Shown here piece after piece: positions 37,510 through 44,050 of a stretch of 64,000 nucleotides of DNA. Source of the stretch: Rhodoligotrophos defluvii (GTDB lineage: Bacteria; Pseudomonadota; Alphaproteobacteria; Rhizobiales; Im1); the NCBI RefSeq assembly GCF_005281615.1, contig NZ_SZZM01000001.1, positions 1,353,001 to 1,417,000 on the forward strand, in the 5' to 3' direction. The notes under the pieces are model-generated. The model worked only from the letters and a program-made list of their open reading frames with translations, was not told the origin of the DNA and made no database searches. The first letter of the stretch is position 1, and each line of letters begins with the position of its first letter. The translations under genes and the position numbers were made by a program.

Positions 37510-38130
37510 ATGAACAAGCTTGACCATCTTCTCTGGGGTTCACCATCGCTCGACGCCGGGATCGATGAATTCGAACGCCTCACGGGTGTGCGGCTGAGCC
37601 TTGGCGGCCGGCACGAGGGATTCGGCACACGCAACGTCCTCGCGACGTTCGGCGATGGCACCTATTTCGAGATCATCGCGCCCGATCCCCAGCAGACGCT
37701 CACCGATACCCTGGGCGAGGTGCTGGGCAAGCTGGAGCGCCCGAAGCTGTTCACCTTCGCGGTCAGCACCACCGACATACCTGCCATGCACGAGCGGCTG
37801 AGCCGGGTAAGCCTGCTGAGCCGGCATGTGAAGATGTCGCGCACCAGGCCGGACGGCGAGGTGCTGAACTGGCAGATCCTCTATCCGGAAGGGCATCCAT
37901 TCGGCTATTTCGTGCCGTTCTTCATCCAATGGGACACGCCGCACCACCCCTCGCAAATGGCTTCCGACGGGCTGACATTGCGTTCCTTCACCGTCAGCCA
38001 TCCGCGTGCGGAGGAACTCAAGGCGCTGTACGGCACGCTCGATATTCCGGTCCGGGTCGAACAGGCTGCGCAGCCCGCGTTCCATGCGCTCATTGGCACA
38101 CCCAGGGGCGAGGTCGAGCTGACGGGCTAG
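37510..38130 (+). CDS. VOC-family glyoxalase-like protein
   Basis: A 206-residue glyoxalase-like (Glyoxalase_3 type) protein. MNKLDHLLWGSPSLDAGIDE and FGDGTYFEIIAPDPQ mark the N-terminal half-barrel. The ATG follows GCGAGGAATTC. It reads away from the thioesterase operon, and its stop overlaps the stop of the convergent GntR gene (CTAG). The metal and substrate are not known for this branch. Confidence 0.87.
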   Translation: MNKLDHLLWGSPSLDAGIDEFERLTGVRLSLGGRHEGFGTRNVLATFGDGTYFEIIAPDPQQTLTDTLGEVLGKLERPKLFTFAVSTTDIPAMHERLSRVSLLSRHVKMSRTRPDGEVLNWQILYPEGHPFGYFVPFFIQWDTPHHPSQMASDGLTLRSFTVSHPRAEELKALYGTLDIPVRVEQAAQPAFHALIGTPRGEVELTG

Positions 38131-38867
38131 CCACCGATCTGAATCTCGACCGACTGGAAGTTCGAGCTGGCCAGGATCGCATCCAGCACCATGCGGCGTG
38201 CCGCTTCGATCTGCGCGATGGTGACCTTCTCGGCCGTTTCGCCGTCGCCCGCCACCAGCGCGTCGATGAGCTCACGGTGCTCGTGCTTCATCTCGTCGGT
38301 GCGATTGCGCAGGGCAAGACCGAGGTGGAACAGGCGCGACATTTCCTCCAGGATGTGGGAGAGGATGCGGGTGAGCTTTTGGTTGCCTGCCCCGTCCACC
38401 ACGGCGATGTGAAAATCCTTGTTGGCCTCGAGGAAAGCGCTCTCGCTTGCCCGGTCGCCAGGCACATAGCCCGCCTGGCAGATCCGCTCCAGCTCCTGGA
38501 TGCGCTTGGGATCGATCTTGCCCGCCGCCTTGCGCGCCGCGGCCGGCTCGAGCAGCAGCCGGATCTCGAACAGCTGGTGCACGTCACGCAGGGTGATCGG
38601 CGCAACCACATAGCCCTTGCGCGGCAGCGACTTCACGAACCCGTCCTGCACCAGCCGCGACAGGGCCCGCCGGATCGGCGCCTTGCCGAGCCCGATCTGC
38701 AAGGCGAGCTGCGCCTCCGTGATGGCTGCCCCGGGCTCGAACTCGCAGCGGATGATCTTCTCCTTGATCCGGTCATAGGCGATCTCGCCGAGTGTCCGGG
38801 CAGTTTCCTCCGGGGCAACGGGCGCAAGCTTGGGAATGGCGTGGGATCGGCTCATCGGTTCCGACAT
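38127..38867 (-). CDS. GntR-family (FCD) transcriptional regulator
   Basis: A regulator of about 246 residues. The winged helix contains LALQIGLGKAPIRRALSRL, with Lys-Ala replacing the usual Arg-Thr before the recognition helix PIRRAL. The FCD domain (ANKDFHIAVVDGAGN, HEHRELIDALV) follows. The start at 38867 is tentative; ATG 38855 is also possible. It shares its terminal CTAG with the convergent VOC gene, leaving no space for a terminator. Its regulon is not evident. Confidence 0.88.
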   Translation of the reverse strand: MSEPMSRSHAIPKLAPVAPEETARTLGEIAYDRIKEKIIRCEFEPGAAITEAQLALQIGLGKAPIRRALSRLVQDGFVKSLPRKGYVVAPITLRDVHQLFEIRLLLEPAAARKAAGKIDPKRIQELERICQAGYVPGDRASESAFLEANKDFHIAVVDGAGNQKLTRILSHILEEMSRLFHLGLALRNRTDEMKHEHRELIDALVAGDGETAEKVTIAQIEAARRMVLDAILASSNFQSVEIQIGG

Positions 38868-39327: not shown

Positions 39328-40911
39328 CTAAAGGAGCACCAGTCCCTCGTTTGGGCGCAACATGAGTGCGCCTTGGACAGGCTCCAGCCGGTCGAGATGG
39401 GTCGAGAGGGTGATCCGCCACGGGCCTGCCGTACGGCCGGGCAGGCTCACTTCGGCAGGGGCGCCGCCGAGATTCAATGCGACGAGAGCCCGCTCCTCCC
39501 CGTGCCGCCGCTCGTAGATGAGTAGGTCGCCCTCGGCCTCGATGGGGTGATAGTCGCCGATCTGGAACACTGGCCTGGCGCGCAATGCGATGAGTTCGCG
39601 GTAAAGCGTCAGGATCGAGCGCGGGTCGTCCTGCAGCACCGCCACGTTGCGCCGGCCGAAATCCGGGGAGAGCGGCAGCCACGGCTTGGCAGTGGAGAAG
39701 CCCGCGCCGGGCGATGCGTCCCACTGCATCGGCGTGCGCTGCGGGTCGCGACCCACACCGAGGCCTGGCTCGTTCTTCTCCCAGGGGTCCTGGGCGTCCT
39801 CCGGCGCGATCGGCACGTCTTCGAGCCCGATCTCGTCGCCGTAATACATGGTCGGTGTGCCGCGCAGGGTGAGCAGCAACATGGCGGCGACCCGCGCCTG
39901 CTCCTGGCCGACGCGCGAGGCGATGCGCGACTTGTCATGGTTGCTGAGGACCCAGTTCGGCCAGCCGCCGCGCGGCAGCGCCCCCTCGTATTCGGAGATG
40001 ATGCGGGCGAGGTTGCGGGCATGCCAGGTCGCTTCGATGAGCTGGAAATTGAACGGCAGATGGGTCCCGCGCAGCTCGGTGCCGTAATAGGCCACCAGCC
40101 GCTCGATCGGCAGATAGATCTCGCCGATCAGCACCCGGTCCGGGTATTCGTCGACGACCCCACGCATCTCTGCGATCACGTCGTGCACATCGGGCTGATC
40201 GGTCGAGTGAACCTGCAGCAGCCGGCGGATGGTCGGATCTCCCGGCTGATAACCCGGATTGGGCGGGTTGTCGCGGAAGTCCGGGTCCTTCATCAGATGC
40301 CAGATCACGTCCACCCGAAAGCCGTCGACACCCCGCTCCAGCCAGAAGCGCAGCACGTCATACATGGCGGATCGCACCTTCGGATTGCGCCAATTGAGAT
40401 CGGGTTGCTGCTCCAGGAACGCGTGGTAGTAGTACTGTCCGGTGGCTTCGTCCCAGGTCCAGGCGCTGCCGCCGAAATTGCTGACCCAGTTGTTGGGTGG
40501 CCCGCCATCGGGTGCGGGGTCGCGCCAGATGTACCAGTCCCGCTTCGCGCTCCCTCGCGATGATCGGCTTTCCAGGAACCAGGGGTGCTGGTCGGACGTA
40601 TGATTGGGCACGTAATCGAGGATCAGCTTCAGGCCGCGCGCATGGGCCTCTGCCAGCAGCGCGTCGAAGGCGGCCAGATCGCCGAAAATCGGGTGGATGT
40701 CGCAATAATCCGAAATGTCGTAGCCGAAATCGGCCATGGGCGAGGGATAGATCGGCGAGACCCAGATCGCGTCGATGCCGAGCCAGCTGAGATAATCGAG
40801 GCGCTGGCGAATGCCGTCGAGATCGCCGATGCCGTCGCCGTTGGAATCCTGGAACGAGCGGGGATAGATCTGGTAGAAAATCGCGCGCTGCCACCAGTCT
40901 CGGCCGTCCAT
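39328..40911 (-). CDS. GH13 alpha-glucosidase
   Basis: A 527-residue GH13 retaining glycosidase of the oligo-1,6-/alpha-glucosidase type. All four conserved regions are intact: DYVPNH at about 99-104, nucleophile Asp201 (GFRVDVIWH), acid/base Glu264 (LIGEIYLP) and Asp326 (SNHDKSRI). AAGGGG lies upstream of ATG 40911, which is two bases after the LLM gene's stop. It is the third gene of the ASRT-LLM-GH13 operon. It probably hydrolyses or transglycosylates small alpha-glucosides such as trehalose, sucrose or maltose. Confidence 0.93.
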   Translation of the reverse strand: MDGRDWWQRAIFYQIYPRSFQDSNGDGIGDLDGIRQRLDYLSWLGIDAIWVSPIYPSPMADFGYDISDYCDIHPIFGDLAAFDALLAEAHARGLKLILDYVPNHTSDQHPWFLESRSSRGSAKRDWYIWRDPAPDGGPPNNWVSNFGGSAWTWDEATGQYYYHAFLEQQPDLNWRNPKVRSAMYDVLRFWLERGVDGFRVDVIWHLMKDPDFRDNPPNPGYQPGDPTIRRLLQVHSTDQPDVHDVIAEMRGVVDEYPDRVLIGEIYLPIERLVAYYGTELRGTHLPFNFQLIEATWHARNLARIISEYEGALPRGGWPNWVLSNHDKSRIASRVGQEQARVAAMLLLTLRGTPTMYYGDEIGLEDVPIAPEDAQDPWEKNEPGLGVGRDPQRTPMQWDASPGAGFSTAKPWLPLSPDFGRRNVAVLQDDPRSILTLYRELIALRARPVFQIGDYHPIEAEGDLLIYERRHGEERALVALNLGGAPAEVSLPGRTAGPWRITLSTHLDRLEPVQGALMLRPNEGLVLL

Positions 40912-40913
40912 CG

Positions 40914-41918
40914 CTATGCCGTCCCCTTTGCTGTCGATGCGATCCTTTCCGCTGCGCCAAGCACGGCCGGGAGGACCCGGTCGCCGAACGCCTCGATGAA
41001 GTCTCGCTGGTTGCGGCCGACATTGTGCAGATGAATCTCTTCGAAGCCGAGGGCGAGGTCCTCTGCGATCCAGTCGATGTGCCGGGTGAGGCCGGCGGAT
41101 ATGCGCACGCTCTCGTCCAGGTCTTCCGGCCGGACGAACCGGGTTGCCGCGTCGAACTGGGCCGGCAGCTTGAGCTCGGCCGCGACGCTGCCGGCCAGCG
41201 TGTTCGTTCGCCACTGCTCATGCGCATTGCGGCGGGCCTCTTGCTCGCTCCCCGCGAAGGAGAGATGCACCTGCAGGAACAGCGGCTTGCCTCCGCCACC
41301 GCCTTCCCGAAAGGCGTCGACCATGGCCTTGAGCTGGTCGCCCGGCTTGTTGATGGTGATGAGACCGTCGGCCCAGCCGCCTGCCCAGCGCGCCGTCTCC
41401 GGCGTGAGGGCAGCGGCGATGATCCGCGGCGGTGTGTTCGGACGGGAATAGAGCCGCGCCTCTTCGACCGGGATCAGTCCGTGGCGCGTGACGGTCTCGC
41501 CTGCCCATAGTGCGCGGATGATCTCGGCGCTCTCCTTGAGGCGCGCATCGCGCTCGGCCTTGAGCGGCCAGCGCTGGCCGGTGATCCGCTCGTTGAGCGC
41601 CTCGCCCGAGCCCAGCGCCATCCACAGCCGGCCCGGAAACATTTCGGCCAGGGTGGCGCCGGCCTGCGCAATGATCGCCGGGTGATAGCGCATCCCGATC
41701 GGCGTTGTCACAACGCCGAACGGCAGCTCGGTCTTTGCCATGGCCGCGCCCAACCAGGTCCATGCAAAGCCGGAATGGCCCTGAGCTTCGCTCCACGGGG
41801 CAAAATGGTCCGACGACATGGCGGCCGTGAAGCCCGCTTTCGCTGCCAGCTCAACATGCGCAAGCAGCTCGCTGGGCGCGAACTGCTCATGCGAGGCGTG
41901 GTAGCCGATCTTTGGCAT
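40914..41918 (-). CDS. LLM-class flavin-dependent oxidoreductase (non-F420, TIGR03885-like)
   Basis: A protein of about 334 residues with a bacterial luciferase-like TIM barrel. The GYHASHEQFAPSELLAHVEL start, SSDHFAPWSEAQGHSGFAW and GSGEALNERITGQRWP match the group related to F420-dependent glucose-6-phosphate dehydrogenase-like enzymes that occurs in F420-lacking bacteria. An FMN cofactor is therefore likely. The start at 41918 is preferred; 41957 is in frame. It lies between the ASRT gene (19 bases) and alpha-glucosidase. The recurring link of this family with sugar metabolism is suggestive only. Confidence 0.88.
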   Translation of the reverse strand: MPKIGYHASHEQFAPSELLAHVELAAKAGFTAAMSSDHFAPWSEAQGHSGFAWTWLGAAMAKTELPFGVVTTPIGMRYHPAIIAQAGATLAEMFPGRLWMALGSGEALNERITGQRWPLKAERDARLKESAEIIRALWAGETVTRHGLIPVEEARLYSRPNTPPRIIAAALTPETARWAGGWADGLITINKPGDQLKAMVDAFREGGGGGKPLFLQVHLSFAGSEQEARRNAHEQWRTNTLAGSVAAELKLPAQFDAATRFVRPEDLDESVRISAGLTRHIDWIAEDLALGFEEIHLHNVGRNQRDFIEAFGDRVLPAVLGAAERIASTAKGTA

Positions 41919-41937: not shown

Positions 41938-42309
41938 TCAGTCTTGCGAATAGGCAATAGTGGTGATCAGCGCGTTTTCGGCTTGTCGGCTGTCAAGCCT
42001 CGTATGCTGCACCACGATCGGCTCGTCCGAGACGATGGTGCTGGAATACGGTGTCCCCAGGGGAACGGGCTCGGGATCATTAAGGTCGTTGAAGCGGATA
42101 TGGCAGCTGCGGCGCGCACCGACCGTCACCTTGTAGGGGCCGGCCGGCTCGCGATCCGTGAAATAGAGCATGATCGTGACATGTGCGTCGCGGTCCCCGG
42201 TGTTCAGCAGGCACGCTGTCTCATGGCTCGTCATTTCCGGCTCCGGCCCGTGGCTGCTGGCCGGAATATAGCCCTCCGCGATCGCCCAGATCTTTCGTCC
42301 AATCGGCAT
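41938..42309 (-). CDS. Sensory rhodopsin transducer (ASRT) family protein
   Basis: A 123-residue beta-sandwich protein of the Anabaena sensory rhodopsin transducer family. Nearly the whole sequence follows the family pattern: RKIWAIAEGYIP, HGPEPEMTSHETACLLN, VTIMLYFTDREPAGPY, HIRFNDLNDPEPVPLGT and QHTRLDSRQAENALITTIAYS. No rhodopsin gene is in the window. The family has been described as a widespread small-molecule-binding fold. The ATG at 42309 matches the usual N-terminus. It is the first gene after a consensus EcfG promoter and leads an operon with LLM and alpha-glucosidase genes, so a sugar ligand is a reasonable inference. Confidence 0.92.
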   Translation of the reverse strand: MPIGRKIWAIAEGYIPASSHGPEPEMTSHETACLLNTGDRDAHVTIMLYFTDREPAGPYKVTVGARRSCHIRFNDLNDPEPVPLGTPYSSTIVSDEPIVVQHTRLDSRQAENALITTIAYSQD

Positions 42310-42343
42310 ATCCGTCCTGTCCCAAGCTTGCGCTGCCCCGCAC

Positions 42344-42371
42344 GGAACGAAAAACGGATTGAAACCGTTCC
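42344..42371. promoter_or_regulatory. Bidirectional, face-to-face EcfG-type promoter
   Basis: GGAACG, 16 bases, CGTTCC. Read on the plus strand it is GGAAC-N17-CGTT; read on the minus strand it is again GGAAC-N17-CGTT, because each -10 box overlaps the complement of the other's -35 box. The plus reading would drive the trehalose-synthase-like gene (ATG 58 bases on), the minus reading the ASRT operon (ATG about 37 bases on). The match to the alphaproteobacterial general-stress consensus is perfect in both directions. Confidence 0.8.
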
Positions 42372-42427
42372 ACAACCGCTCCGCTATCCGCGCTTCGCTT
42401 GTCGGGACATTTCGGGACGTCAGCACG

Positions 42428-44050
42428 ATGCCAGAGCTTTGGTGGAAAGATGCCATCATCTACGGCATCGACGTGGAACGCTTTCATGATGGCAACGGCG
42501 ACGGGATCGGTGACTTTCAAGGCCTGATCTCCAAGCTCGATTACATCGCTGACCTCGGCGTCACCTGCGTGTGGCTCCTGCCATTCTACCCGTCCAACAA
42601 TCGCGACAACGGCTACGACATCACCGACTATTTCCGCGTGCACACCCGCTATGGCACGTTCGAGGACTTTCTTGCTTTCGTGCGAAGGGCAGGCGAGTTG
42701 GGCTTGCGGGTCATTCTGGATCTGGTGGTGCACCACACCTCCGATCATCACCCTTGGTTCCAGGCCGCCCGGCACGACCCTAAATCGCCCTATCGCGACT
42801 TCTACTATTGGACGGACCATCCGCCACCCGCACGACCTGGCAAGGGGCCGATGTTCCCCGGCGAGGAAAAGAGCGTCTGGACTTATGACGAGCTCGCGGG
42901 CGCCTACTATCATCACCGGTTTTACCGGTTTCAGCCGGGCCTCAATCATAGCAATCCAAAGGTGCTGGCGCAGATCGAGGAGGTGGTCGACTACTGGCTG
43001 AGCTTCGGCGTCTCCGGTTTCCGGGTCGATGCAGCCTCCCACATGGTCGAGCGGCCGATAGGGCCGGAGCCGGTCGACAAGTCCCACGCGGTGCTGCGCC
43101 ATCTCTATCACCACACGGTCACCCGCAAGCCGGACGTGCTGTTGATGGGCGAAGTGGATGAAACGCCGGAGCGGCTGAAGGACTATTTCGACGGCGAGCA
43201 GCTGAACATGATGTTCAACTTCCTGCTCAACAACTACCTGATCCTGGCCTTGGCCTCCGAGAAGGCCGAGCCGGTCCGCCGCGCCATCGACATGTTGCCG
43301 CCGGTGCCCCTCAGCGGGCAGTGGGCCAATTTCCTGCGCAACCTCGACGAGGCCGATCTTGAGCGGCTCGCGCCGGAGGAGATGGAGGTGGTCAACAAGG
43401 CTTTCGCGCCGAAGCCGGAGATGCGGATCTTCGGCCGCGGCATCCGCCGCAGGCTTGCCCCCATGCTCCAGGGCAACAAGCAGCGCCTGAAAATGGCCTA
43501 CAGCCTGCTGTTCTCGCTCCCCGGCTCGCCGGTGATCGTCTATGGCGACGAGATCGGCATGGGCGAAGACTTGTCCCAGCACGGCCGCAACAGCGTGCGA
43601 ACGCCAATGCAGTGGTCGGCGGCCAAGAACGGTGGCTTCTCGTCAGCACCGAACAACCGGATCATTCAGCCGGCCGTCGAGGACGGTCCGTTTAGCTATA
43701 AGTCGGTGAATGTGGAGCTGCAGCAGAGCCGGCCTGATTCGCTGCTCAACTTCATCAAGCAGCTTGCCGCCGCGCGGCTGGCCCACAAGGAGATCGGCAC
43801 GGGCTTTGTCGAGTTCCTGGAAAGCAGCTCCGAGCAGGTGCTGGTGCATCGCTATCCGCCAGGAGAGACCGCCCTGGTCATCATGCACAACCTCAGCGGC
43901 AAGGAAGCACCGGTCGACATCAAGCTCGGCATCTCTGCCCAGCCGCGGCACGAGCCCATTCTCGGCGGAGACATACCCGATCCGGTGGAAGGTCGGCTGC
44001 ATCTCAAGCTCGAGCCCTACGGCTTCCGCTGGATCCGGGTGCACCGATAA
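42428..44050 (+). CDS. GH13 trehalose synthase-like protein with altered active-site regions
   Basis: A 540-residue GH13 protein most like trehalose synthase/amylosucrase-type enzymes (PELWWKDAIIYGIDVERFHD, RTPMQWS, LPGSPVIVYGDEIGMGEDL). The nucleophile Asp201 (GFRVDAASH), acid/base Glu242 (LMGEVDE) and Asp307 are kept, but region I reads VVHHTSDHH (Asn to His at 102) and region IV reads RNLDEADL (His to Leu at 306). These changes remove residues that normally hold the substrate at subsite -1. It may be a specialised isomerase or hydrolase. It is divergent from the ASRT operon with a shared stress promoter. Confidence 0.9.
   Translation: MPELWWKDAIIYGIDVERFHDGNGDGIGDFQGLISKLDYIADLGVTCVWLLPFYPSNNRDNGYDITDYFRVHTRYGTFEDFLAFVRRAGELGLRVILDLVVHHTSDHHPWFQAARHDPKSPYRDFYYWTDHPPPARPGKGPMFPGEEKSVWTYDELAGAYYHHRFYRFQPGLNHSNPKVLAQIEEVVDYWLSFGVSGFRVDAASHMVERPIGPEPVDKSHAVLRHLYHHTVTRKPDVLLMGEVDETPERLKDYFDGEQLNMMFNFLLNNYLILALASEKAEPVRRAIDMLPPVPLSGQWANFLRNLDEADLERLAPEEMEVVNKAFAPKPEMRIFGRGIRRRLAPMLQGNKQRLKMAYSLLFSLPGSPVIVYGDEIGMGEDLSQHGRNSVRTPMQWSAAKNGGFSSAPNNRIIQPAVEDGPFSYKSVNVELQQSRPDSLLNFIKQLAAARLAHKEIGTGFVEFLESSSEQVLVHRYPPGETALVIMHNLSGKEAPVDIKLGISAQPRHEPILGGDIPDPVEGRLHLKLEPYGFRWIRVHR

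Follow-up and report, generated by a model that had tools for sequence, protein, structure and literature searches.

What does a symmetric EcfG-type element do in the gap between two divergent carbohydrate genes? The question is raised by a locus of Rhodoligotrophos defluvii that lies in the window, the whole stretch of 64,000 nt analysed here. An ASRT gene and a trehalose synthase–like (TreS-like) gene diverge there across an intergenic gap of 118 bp, which holds the 28-bp dyad GGAACGAAAAACGGATTGAAACCGTTCC (42344-42371), read directly from the window and of the form GGAACG-N16-CGTTCC. Sequence comparison makes it quite likely that this element is one bidirectional general-stress promoter, built of two fully superposed EcfG promoters.

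The dyad and its flanking genes

The features of the locus are the following.

42344-42371, no strand: dyad GGAACG-N16-CGTTCC, read in the sequence as two superposed, opposite EcfG-type promoters; arms GGAAC/GTTCC kept in 5/5 divergent TreS-ASRT loci
42344-42369, plus strand: predicted promoter toward the TreS-like gene; -35 box GGAAC 42344-42348, spacer 17, -10 box CGTT 42366-42369
42346-42371, minus strand: predicted promoter toward ASRT-LLM-GH13; -35 box GGAAC 42371-42367, spacer 17, -10 box CGTT 42349-42346
42374-42381, plus strand: predicted window for the start of the TreS-like transcript, 5-12 nt beyond the promoter end (range as in the available text of PMC3616915)
42334-42341, minus strand: predicted window for the start of the ASRT operon transcript (same 5-12 nt range, PMC3616915)
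42428-44050, plus strand: TreS-like GH13 gene (TIGR02456, 520 bits, under the 678 cut-off)
41938-42309, minus strand: ASRT gene (PF07100; profile match and gene model), at the head of the predicted leftward operon
40914-41918, minus strand: LLM-class oxidoreductase gene (TIGR03885)
39328-40911, minus strand: gene for a GH13 alpha-amylase-family enzyme, alpha-glucosidase-like (no NCBIfam model shown reached its own cut-off)

On each strand the dyad reads GGAAC-N17-CGTT, as the sequence-only reading had proposed (42344-42369 on the plus strand and 42371-42346 on the minus strand), and both directions carry the EcfG (ECF15) promoter pattern of GGAAC, 16 to 17 nt and CGTT. Each copy also has a gene a short distance ahead of it in its own reading direction: 34 bp separate the dyad from the ASRT start, and 56 bp separate it from the TreS-like start. 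The consensus GGAAC-N16-CGTT is given in the available text for Sphingopyxis (PMC7083833) and for Rhizobium etli (PMC3892343), and up to 14 different -10 boxes, CGTT being the commonest, are described in Sphingopyxis (PMC7083833). The complement of GTT is part of GGAAC, which allows each arm to be the -35 box for one strand and the -10 box for the other; three bases (GTT) are common to each CGTT and the opposite-strand GGAAC. The overlap of each -10 box with the other promoter's -35 box had thus been described correctly, but the label "face-to-face" was wrong, as the two promoters are superposed and divergent, pointing apart. A scan of 42250-42480 found no sigma-70-like promoter, and no strict EcfG site for the TreS-like gene was found other than the dyad.

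To the left, the ASRT, LLM and GH13 genes run in series, separated by 19 and 2 bp, a spacing that makes them look like an operon. Together with the GH13 TreS-like neighbour on the opposite strand, this agrees with the ASRT-LLM-alpha-glucosidase unit and the trehalose-synthase-like gene named earlier. The latter is TreS-like by similarity; with a TIGR02456 score under the cut-off, its trehalose synthase activity is putative and unproven. A codon-usage gene model recovers both the ASRT start (42309, minus strand) and the TreS-like start (42428, plus strand); its neighbour calls are unreliable where GC is low or gaps are large (e.g., L129), and its gaps for L374-L376 disagree with the annotated records. 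ASRT has a second copy in this genome (L115 1501-1851; G000:C2:296704-297054), which comes with its own dyad, GGAACGAACCGACTTGGTCCGAGTTCC. About 310 bp upstream of that copy lies a 41-residue match to the ASRT C terminus (C2:296272-296394), which may be a decayed third copy.

The core genes of the general stress response (GSR) are present. The genome holds one NepR match (nepR, C3:449410-449511), which is overlapped by an ECF sigma factor gene with PhyR_sigma2 similarity, and phyR lies divergently on the other strand. The sigma factor gene is taken as ecfG because it adjoins nepR and has this similarity, no EcfG-only model being among the results. On this assignment, EcfG, NepR and PhyR are all encoded. 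The genome's own nepR is preceded by GGAAC-N17-CGTT, placed back-to-back with GGAAC-N16-AGTT toward phyR.

Conservation of the dyad at ASRT loci

ASRT homologues are rare. They occur in 2 of 101 relatives, in 7 of 385 genomes of the class and 3 of 297 of the order, and in 6 of 346 genomes from the Mesorhizobium sp. RMAD-H1 family and 3 of 256 from the Paracoccus family, all of these sets overlapping in part. The best 80 of 229 ASRT loci were kept for comparison, and 5 of 79 plasmid records with ASRT were inspected. Five loci have ASRT divergent from a TreS-like gene, namely those of the window, a congener (G001), Mesorhizobium sp. RMAD-H1 (L002), Limoniibacter endophyticus (L012) and Paracoccus thiocyanatus (L057); the congener's locus is L114. 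The gap of all five contains GGAAC-N17/18-GTTCC, beginning 55-62 bp before ASRT. The arms are identical throughout, and the spacer columns show a pairwise identity of 0.1-0.6, which is near-random. Total dyad length is 28 bp in the window, Limoniibacter and Paracoccus and 27 bp in G001 and Mesorhizobium. Both -10 boxes are CGTT in the window, G001 and Mesorhizobium; in Limoniibacter and Paracoccus, the box is GGTT toward ASRT and TGTT toward TreS. Since the five loci share descent, this pattern represents retention of the dyad and not five origins. Loss of the symmetry in close relatives had been named as a refutation, and the dyad is kept in the one congener found with the locus and in the genomes of Mesorhizobium, Limoniibacter and Paracoccus. 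A second congener (G002) gave no ASRT match and neither supports nor contradicts this, and a distant DNA search with the intergenic region found no match in plasmids.

Elsewhere, the strict dyad is found in 1 of 21 other alphaproteobacterial ASRT loci, this being the second ASRT copy of the R. defluvii genome, which is without a divergent TreS gene. With relatives counted separately, 5/5 against 1/21 gives a Fisher p of 9e-5. The contrast set counts L081 and L236 once, as they have the same promoter sequence, includes L179-L181, which are merely 29-30% identical, and leaves out of the locus count the second ASRT copies in Sinorhizobium-type operons (L212, L224, L225, L228 and L229). In Sinorhizobium meliloti, the ASRT, TreS-like and LLM genes are co-directional behind a one-way GGAAC-N16-GGTT, and the ASRT locus of S. 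medicae has a similar one-way site. The strict dyad is absent from eight ASRT loci with a divergent upstream gene that is not TreS-like (neighbours by gene model, three also annotated). In Sphingobium (L375) and Croceicoccus (L376), where ASRT diverges from other genes, there are near-dyads in which a single mismatch falls in one -35 box; such one-mismatch "relaxed dyads" were set aside, as most of them equal one-way promoters. In Sphingobium, ectoine genes neighbour ASRT.

Outside Alphaproteobacteria, a TreS-like gene follows ASRT on the same strand at seven loci (L010, L013, L028, L036, L042, L073 and L078), precedes it on the same strand at two (L074 and L077) and lies downstream on the other strand at five (L022, L026, L039, L072 and L076). 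The divergent layout was not found among the non-alphaproteobacterial ASRT loci within the flanking DNA examined. The presence of the dyad in 5/5 divergent TreS-ASRT loci and 1/21 others argues that the two-way promoter goes with the divergent TreS layout.

Dyads at other loci and alternative readings

The sequence-only reading had hinted that the arrangement was unique. However, it recurs in five nepR/phyR gaps as well as between other divergent genes. The nepR set comprises 138 loci from 136 genomes, leaving out L165 (a short contig) and weaker or second NepR matches. The commonest layout upstream of nepR is the back-to-back one, GTTCC-N8/9-GGAAC, with counts of 20 and 23 among the 138 loci (e.g., L112; -35 boxes 8-9 bp apart). 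Superposed matches of the form GGAAC-Nk-GTTCC number seven at k=17 and two at k=18, every other k up to 60 giving zero to two. Seven nepR loci have the superposed form without a separate back-to-back pair, and two have both layouts. In five of these seven (G508, G100, G538, G065 and G562), phyR is divergent across the dyad; in G244 and G342, phyR was not found within the 3.1 kb examined, and the idea that all superposed nepR loci are nepR/phyR gaps was rejected. In one genus (g60), all four species found with nepR (G065, G100, G538 and G562) have the dyad between nepR-ecfG and phyR, with differing spacers and both lengths. Upstream of nepR, CC follows CGTT at 11 of 134 strict sites against a background of 7%. 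Enrichment of nepR dyads was rejected for this near-background rate, leaving the spacing peak and the retention within one genus, and these dyads are likely to have arisen by chance and to have been retained later.

Motif number is similarly uninformative. The exact dyad occurs once in the window and in 0 of 100 shuffles, and the N16 form is found once in the 5.49-Mb genome, the reversed control giving zero. The one-way pattern with a spacer of 16-18 has two matches in the window, both within the dyad; 0.95 would be expected, and 27 of 100 shuffled sequences have at least two. The genome has four N15-16 dyads against three for the reversed pattern, with 90 one-way matches listed against 135 for the reversed control. 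Summed from the per-genome table, 83 dyads in 101 genomes stand against about 169 reversed-pattern matches, and the genome-wide number was rejected as evidence because dyads are fewer than the control. With counts this near to control, the case is carried by position in divergent gaps and by conservation.

With respect to position, two of the four dyads in the genome lie in divergent gaps. In contrast, none of 24 classified single sites does so (Fisher p 0.016); these 24, among 30 loci returned for this genome, comprise 12 in coding sequence and 12 between co-directional genes. Among the 75 dyads listed of the 83, 37 are intergenic, compared with a baseline of 11% of positions, and 11 are divergent, compared with 1.6%; the rows L355 and L357 have identical sequence in two genomes of one genus. 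The divergent share of intergenic dyads is 11/37 against 14% (p 0.013), and 7/28 (p 0.10) once hairpin-like dyads and three loci known beforehand are removed. Among intergenic dyads, the bias toward divergent gaps is weak.

These data bear on three other readings of the element. One holds that only the direction toward ASRT is a working EcfG promoter and that the reverse match is a by-product. GGAAC...GTT needs just an adjoining CC to look two-way, the CC rate upstream of nepR is near background, and several genomes have ASRT with a one-way site and no dyad (e.g., L054, L081 and L212). However, CC is kept in 5/5 divergent loci despite the randomised spacer, for which the background rate would give 0.07^5, about 2e-6, or 0.07^4, about 2e-5, with the congeners merged. 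Moreover, 20 of the 21 other ASRT loci lack a strict dyad, and a one-way site would leave the TreS-like gene with neither a strict EcfG nor a sigma-70-like site. This reading is considered unlikely.

A second reading takes the dyad as the operator of a dimeric regulator acting on sugar genes, with an incidental resemblance to EcfG promoters. It is very improbable, even though the element is an inverted repeat between divergent carbohydrate genes and a gene for a GntR-family regulator is present at 38127-38867. The half-site spacing is not fixed, as dyad length is 27 or 28 bp across loci. EcfG promoters accept both N16 and N17, whereas a rigid dimer rarely tolerates such a change in length, and the variation therefore fits EcfG spacer tolerance better than a dimer operator. 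Co-directional relatives, furthermore, keep just one promoter orientation, and the same element is present at nepR/phyR. Chance, by which a GC-rich genome would yield a few dyads of which one falls between divergent genes, is hardly credible: the four dyads against three control matches would allow it, but conservation at 5/5 loci with saturated spacers and the 2/4 against 0/24 placement in divergent gaps speak against it.

Proposed action and relation to known promoters

As a bidirectional EcfG promoter, the dyad is probably functional, with a single polymerase site through which the two units would both be activated. PhyR would free EcfG from NepR, and EcfG-RNA polymerase would then bind the dyad in one of two orientations, the orientation deciding whether TreS-like or ASRT-LLM-GH13 mRNA is made. 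One pipeline for Sinorhizobium meliloti accepted a promoter if it lay 5-12 nt before the start (PMC3616915, available text), a range that would place the starts on opposite strands and 33-47 bp apart. Since both promoters cover the same bases, simultaneous occupancy by two polymerases appears sterically implausible. The units would thus be co-induced in the population while sharing a single loading site, with mutual exclusion on each molecule. In E. coli, according to the text available, five tested bidirectional promoters fire too rarely at the basal level to compete, and bidirectional promoters compete once one direction is substantially activated (PMC12825309). At the dyad, low EcfG activity would likely give co-induction with sharing, and high activity mutual limitation.

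Such a promoter would resemble the sigma-70 bidirectional promoters of Warman, Grainger et al. (PMC12825309, PMC10268837; available text), in which a short symmetric sequence takes polymerase in two orientations and gives divergent RNAs with steric exclusion, as is predicted here. In the sigma-70 type, the symmetry lies in a shared -10 box, which the starts flank or fall within (PMC12825309), and the starts are 7-25 bp apart (PMC10268837), most often 18. In contrast, the whole -35/-10 pair is symmetric in the dyad, with boxes swapped between strands, and one alternative sigma factor would drive both directions. Its -10 boxes are separate and overlap the -35 boxes, and the predicted start distance of 33-47 bp exceeds the sigma-70 range; the dyad would therefore work like a bidirectional promoter while lying outside the sigma-70 definition.

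Divergent transcription units under GSR control, nepR-ecfG and phyR, are already known, and the available text of PMC8103513 describes a comparable situation, with EcfG-type sites on both strands of one intergenic region and GSR-driven units, as predicted for the dyad. Unlike the back-to-back layout, present at this genome's own nepR/phyR, where each promoter has its own boxes, the dyad shares them. ASRT neighbourhoods have been described in which ASRT is linked with amylases and other sugar enzymes, for example in Sinorhizobium, as it is here (PMC2739507); that work concerns operons and a sugar-sensor proposal, and its available text names neither EcfG nor a divergent promoter common to two units. 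A superposed EcfG promoter was not found in the accessible text of PMC7083833, PMC3892343, PMC8103513, PMC3616915, PMC6180224 and PMC4842269 or in search listings of the open-licence literature, which is weak evidence of absence.

Bacterial bidirectional promoters have so far been explained by sigma-70 -10 symmetry; here, the symmetry of an entire alternative-sigma promoter would suffice. If this is true, such pairs would escape start-site surveys that apply a cut-off of 7-25 bp. The dyad would also be a clean system for the study of orientation choice, in which both strands carry the same boxes, a single sigma factor is involved and small mutations are expected to silence one direction only. 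In addition, it suggests a simple route for a change of gene order within a stress regulon, the promoter being one-way where genes are co-directional and two-way where they diverge. The odds are about even that whole-promoter dyads form a separate bidirectional class for those ECF sigma factors in which the complement of the -10 box is found within the -35 box. In such a class, a change of two bases, giving CC after the -10 box, would make a one-way promoter two-way and keep an inverted gene in the regulon, the units dividing one polymerase site.

Three further dyads were observed near divergent genes. In the R. defluvii genome, one (L319 1472-1498; G000:C1:654571-654597) separates a TrkA_N-domain gene from a divergent gene for a small predicted membrane protein and is possibly a second two-way promoter. 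Another (L145 1501-1528, G064) is flanked by divergent PRC-barrel and DUF3096 genes at distances of 69 and 19 bp, and the third (L353, G070) is 34 bp from a Host_attach/baeRF_family12 gene, with a siroheme synthase gene divergent.
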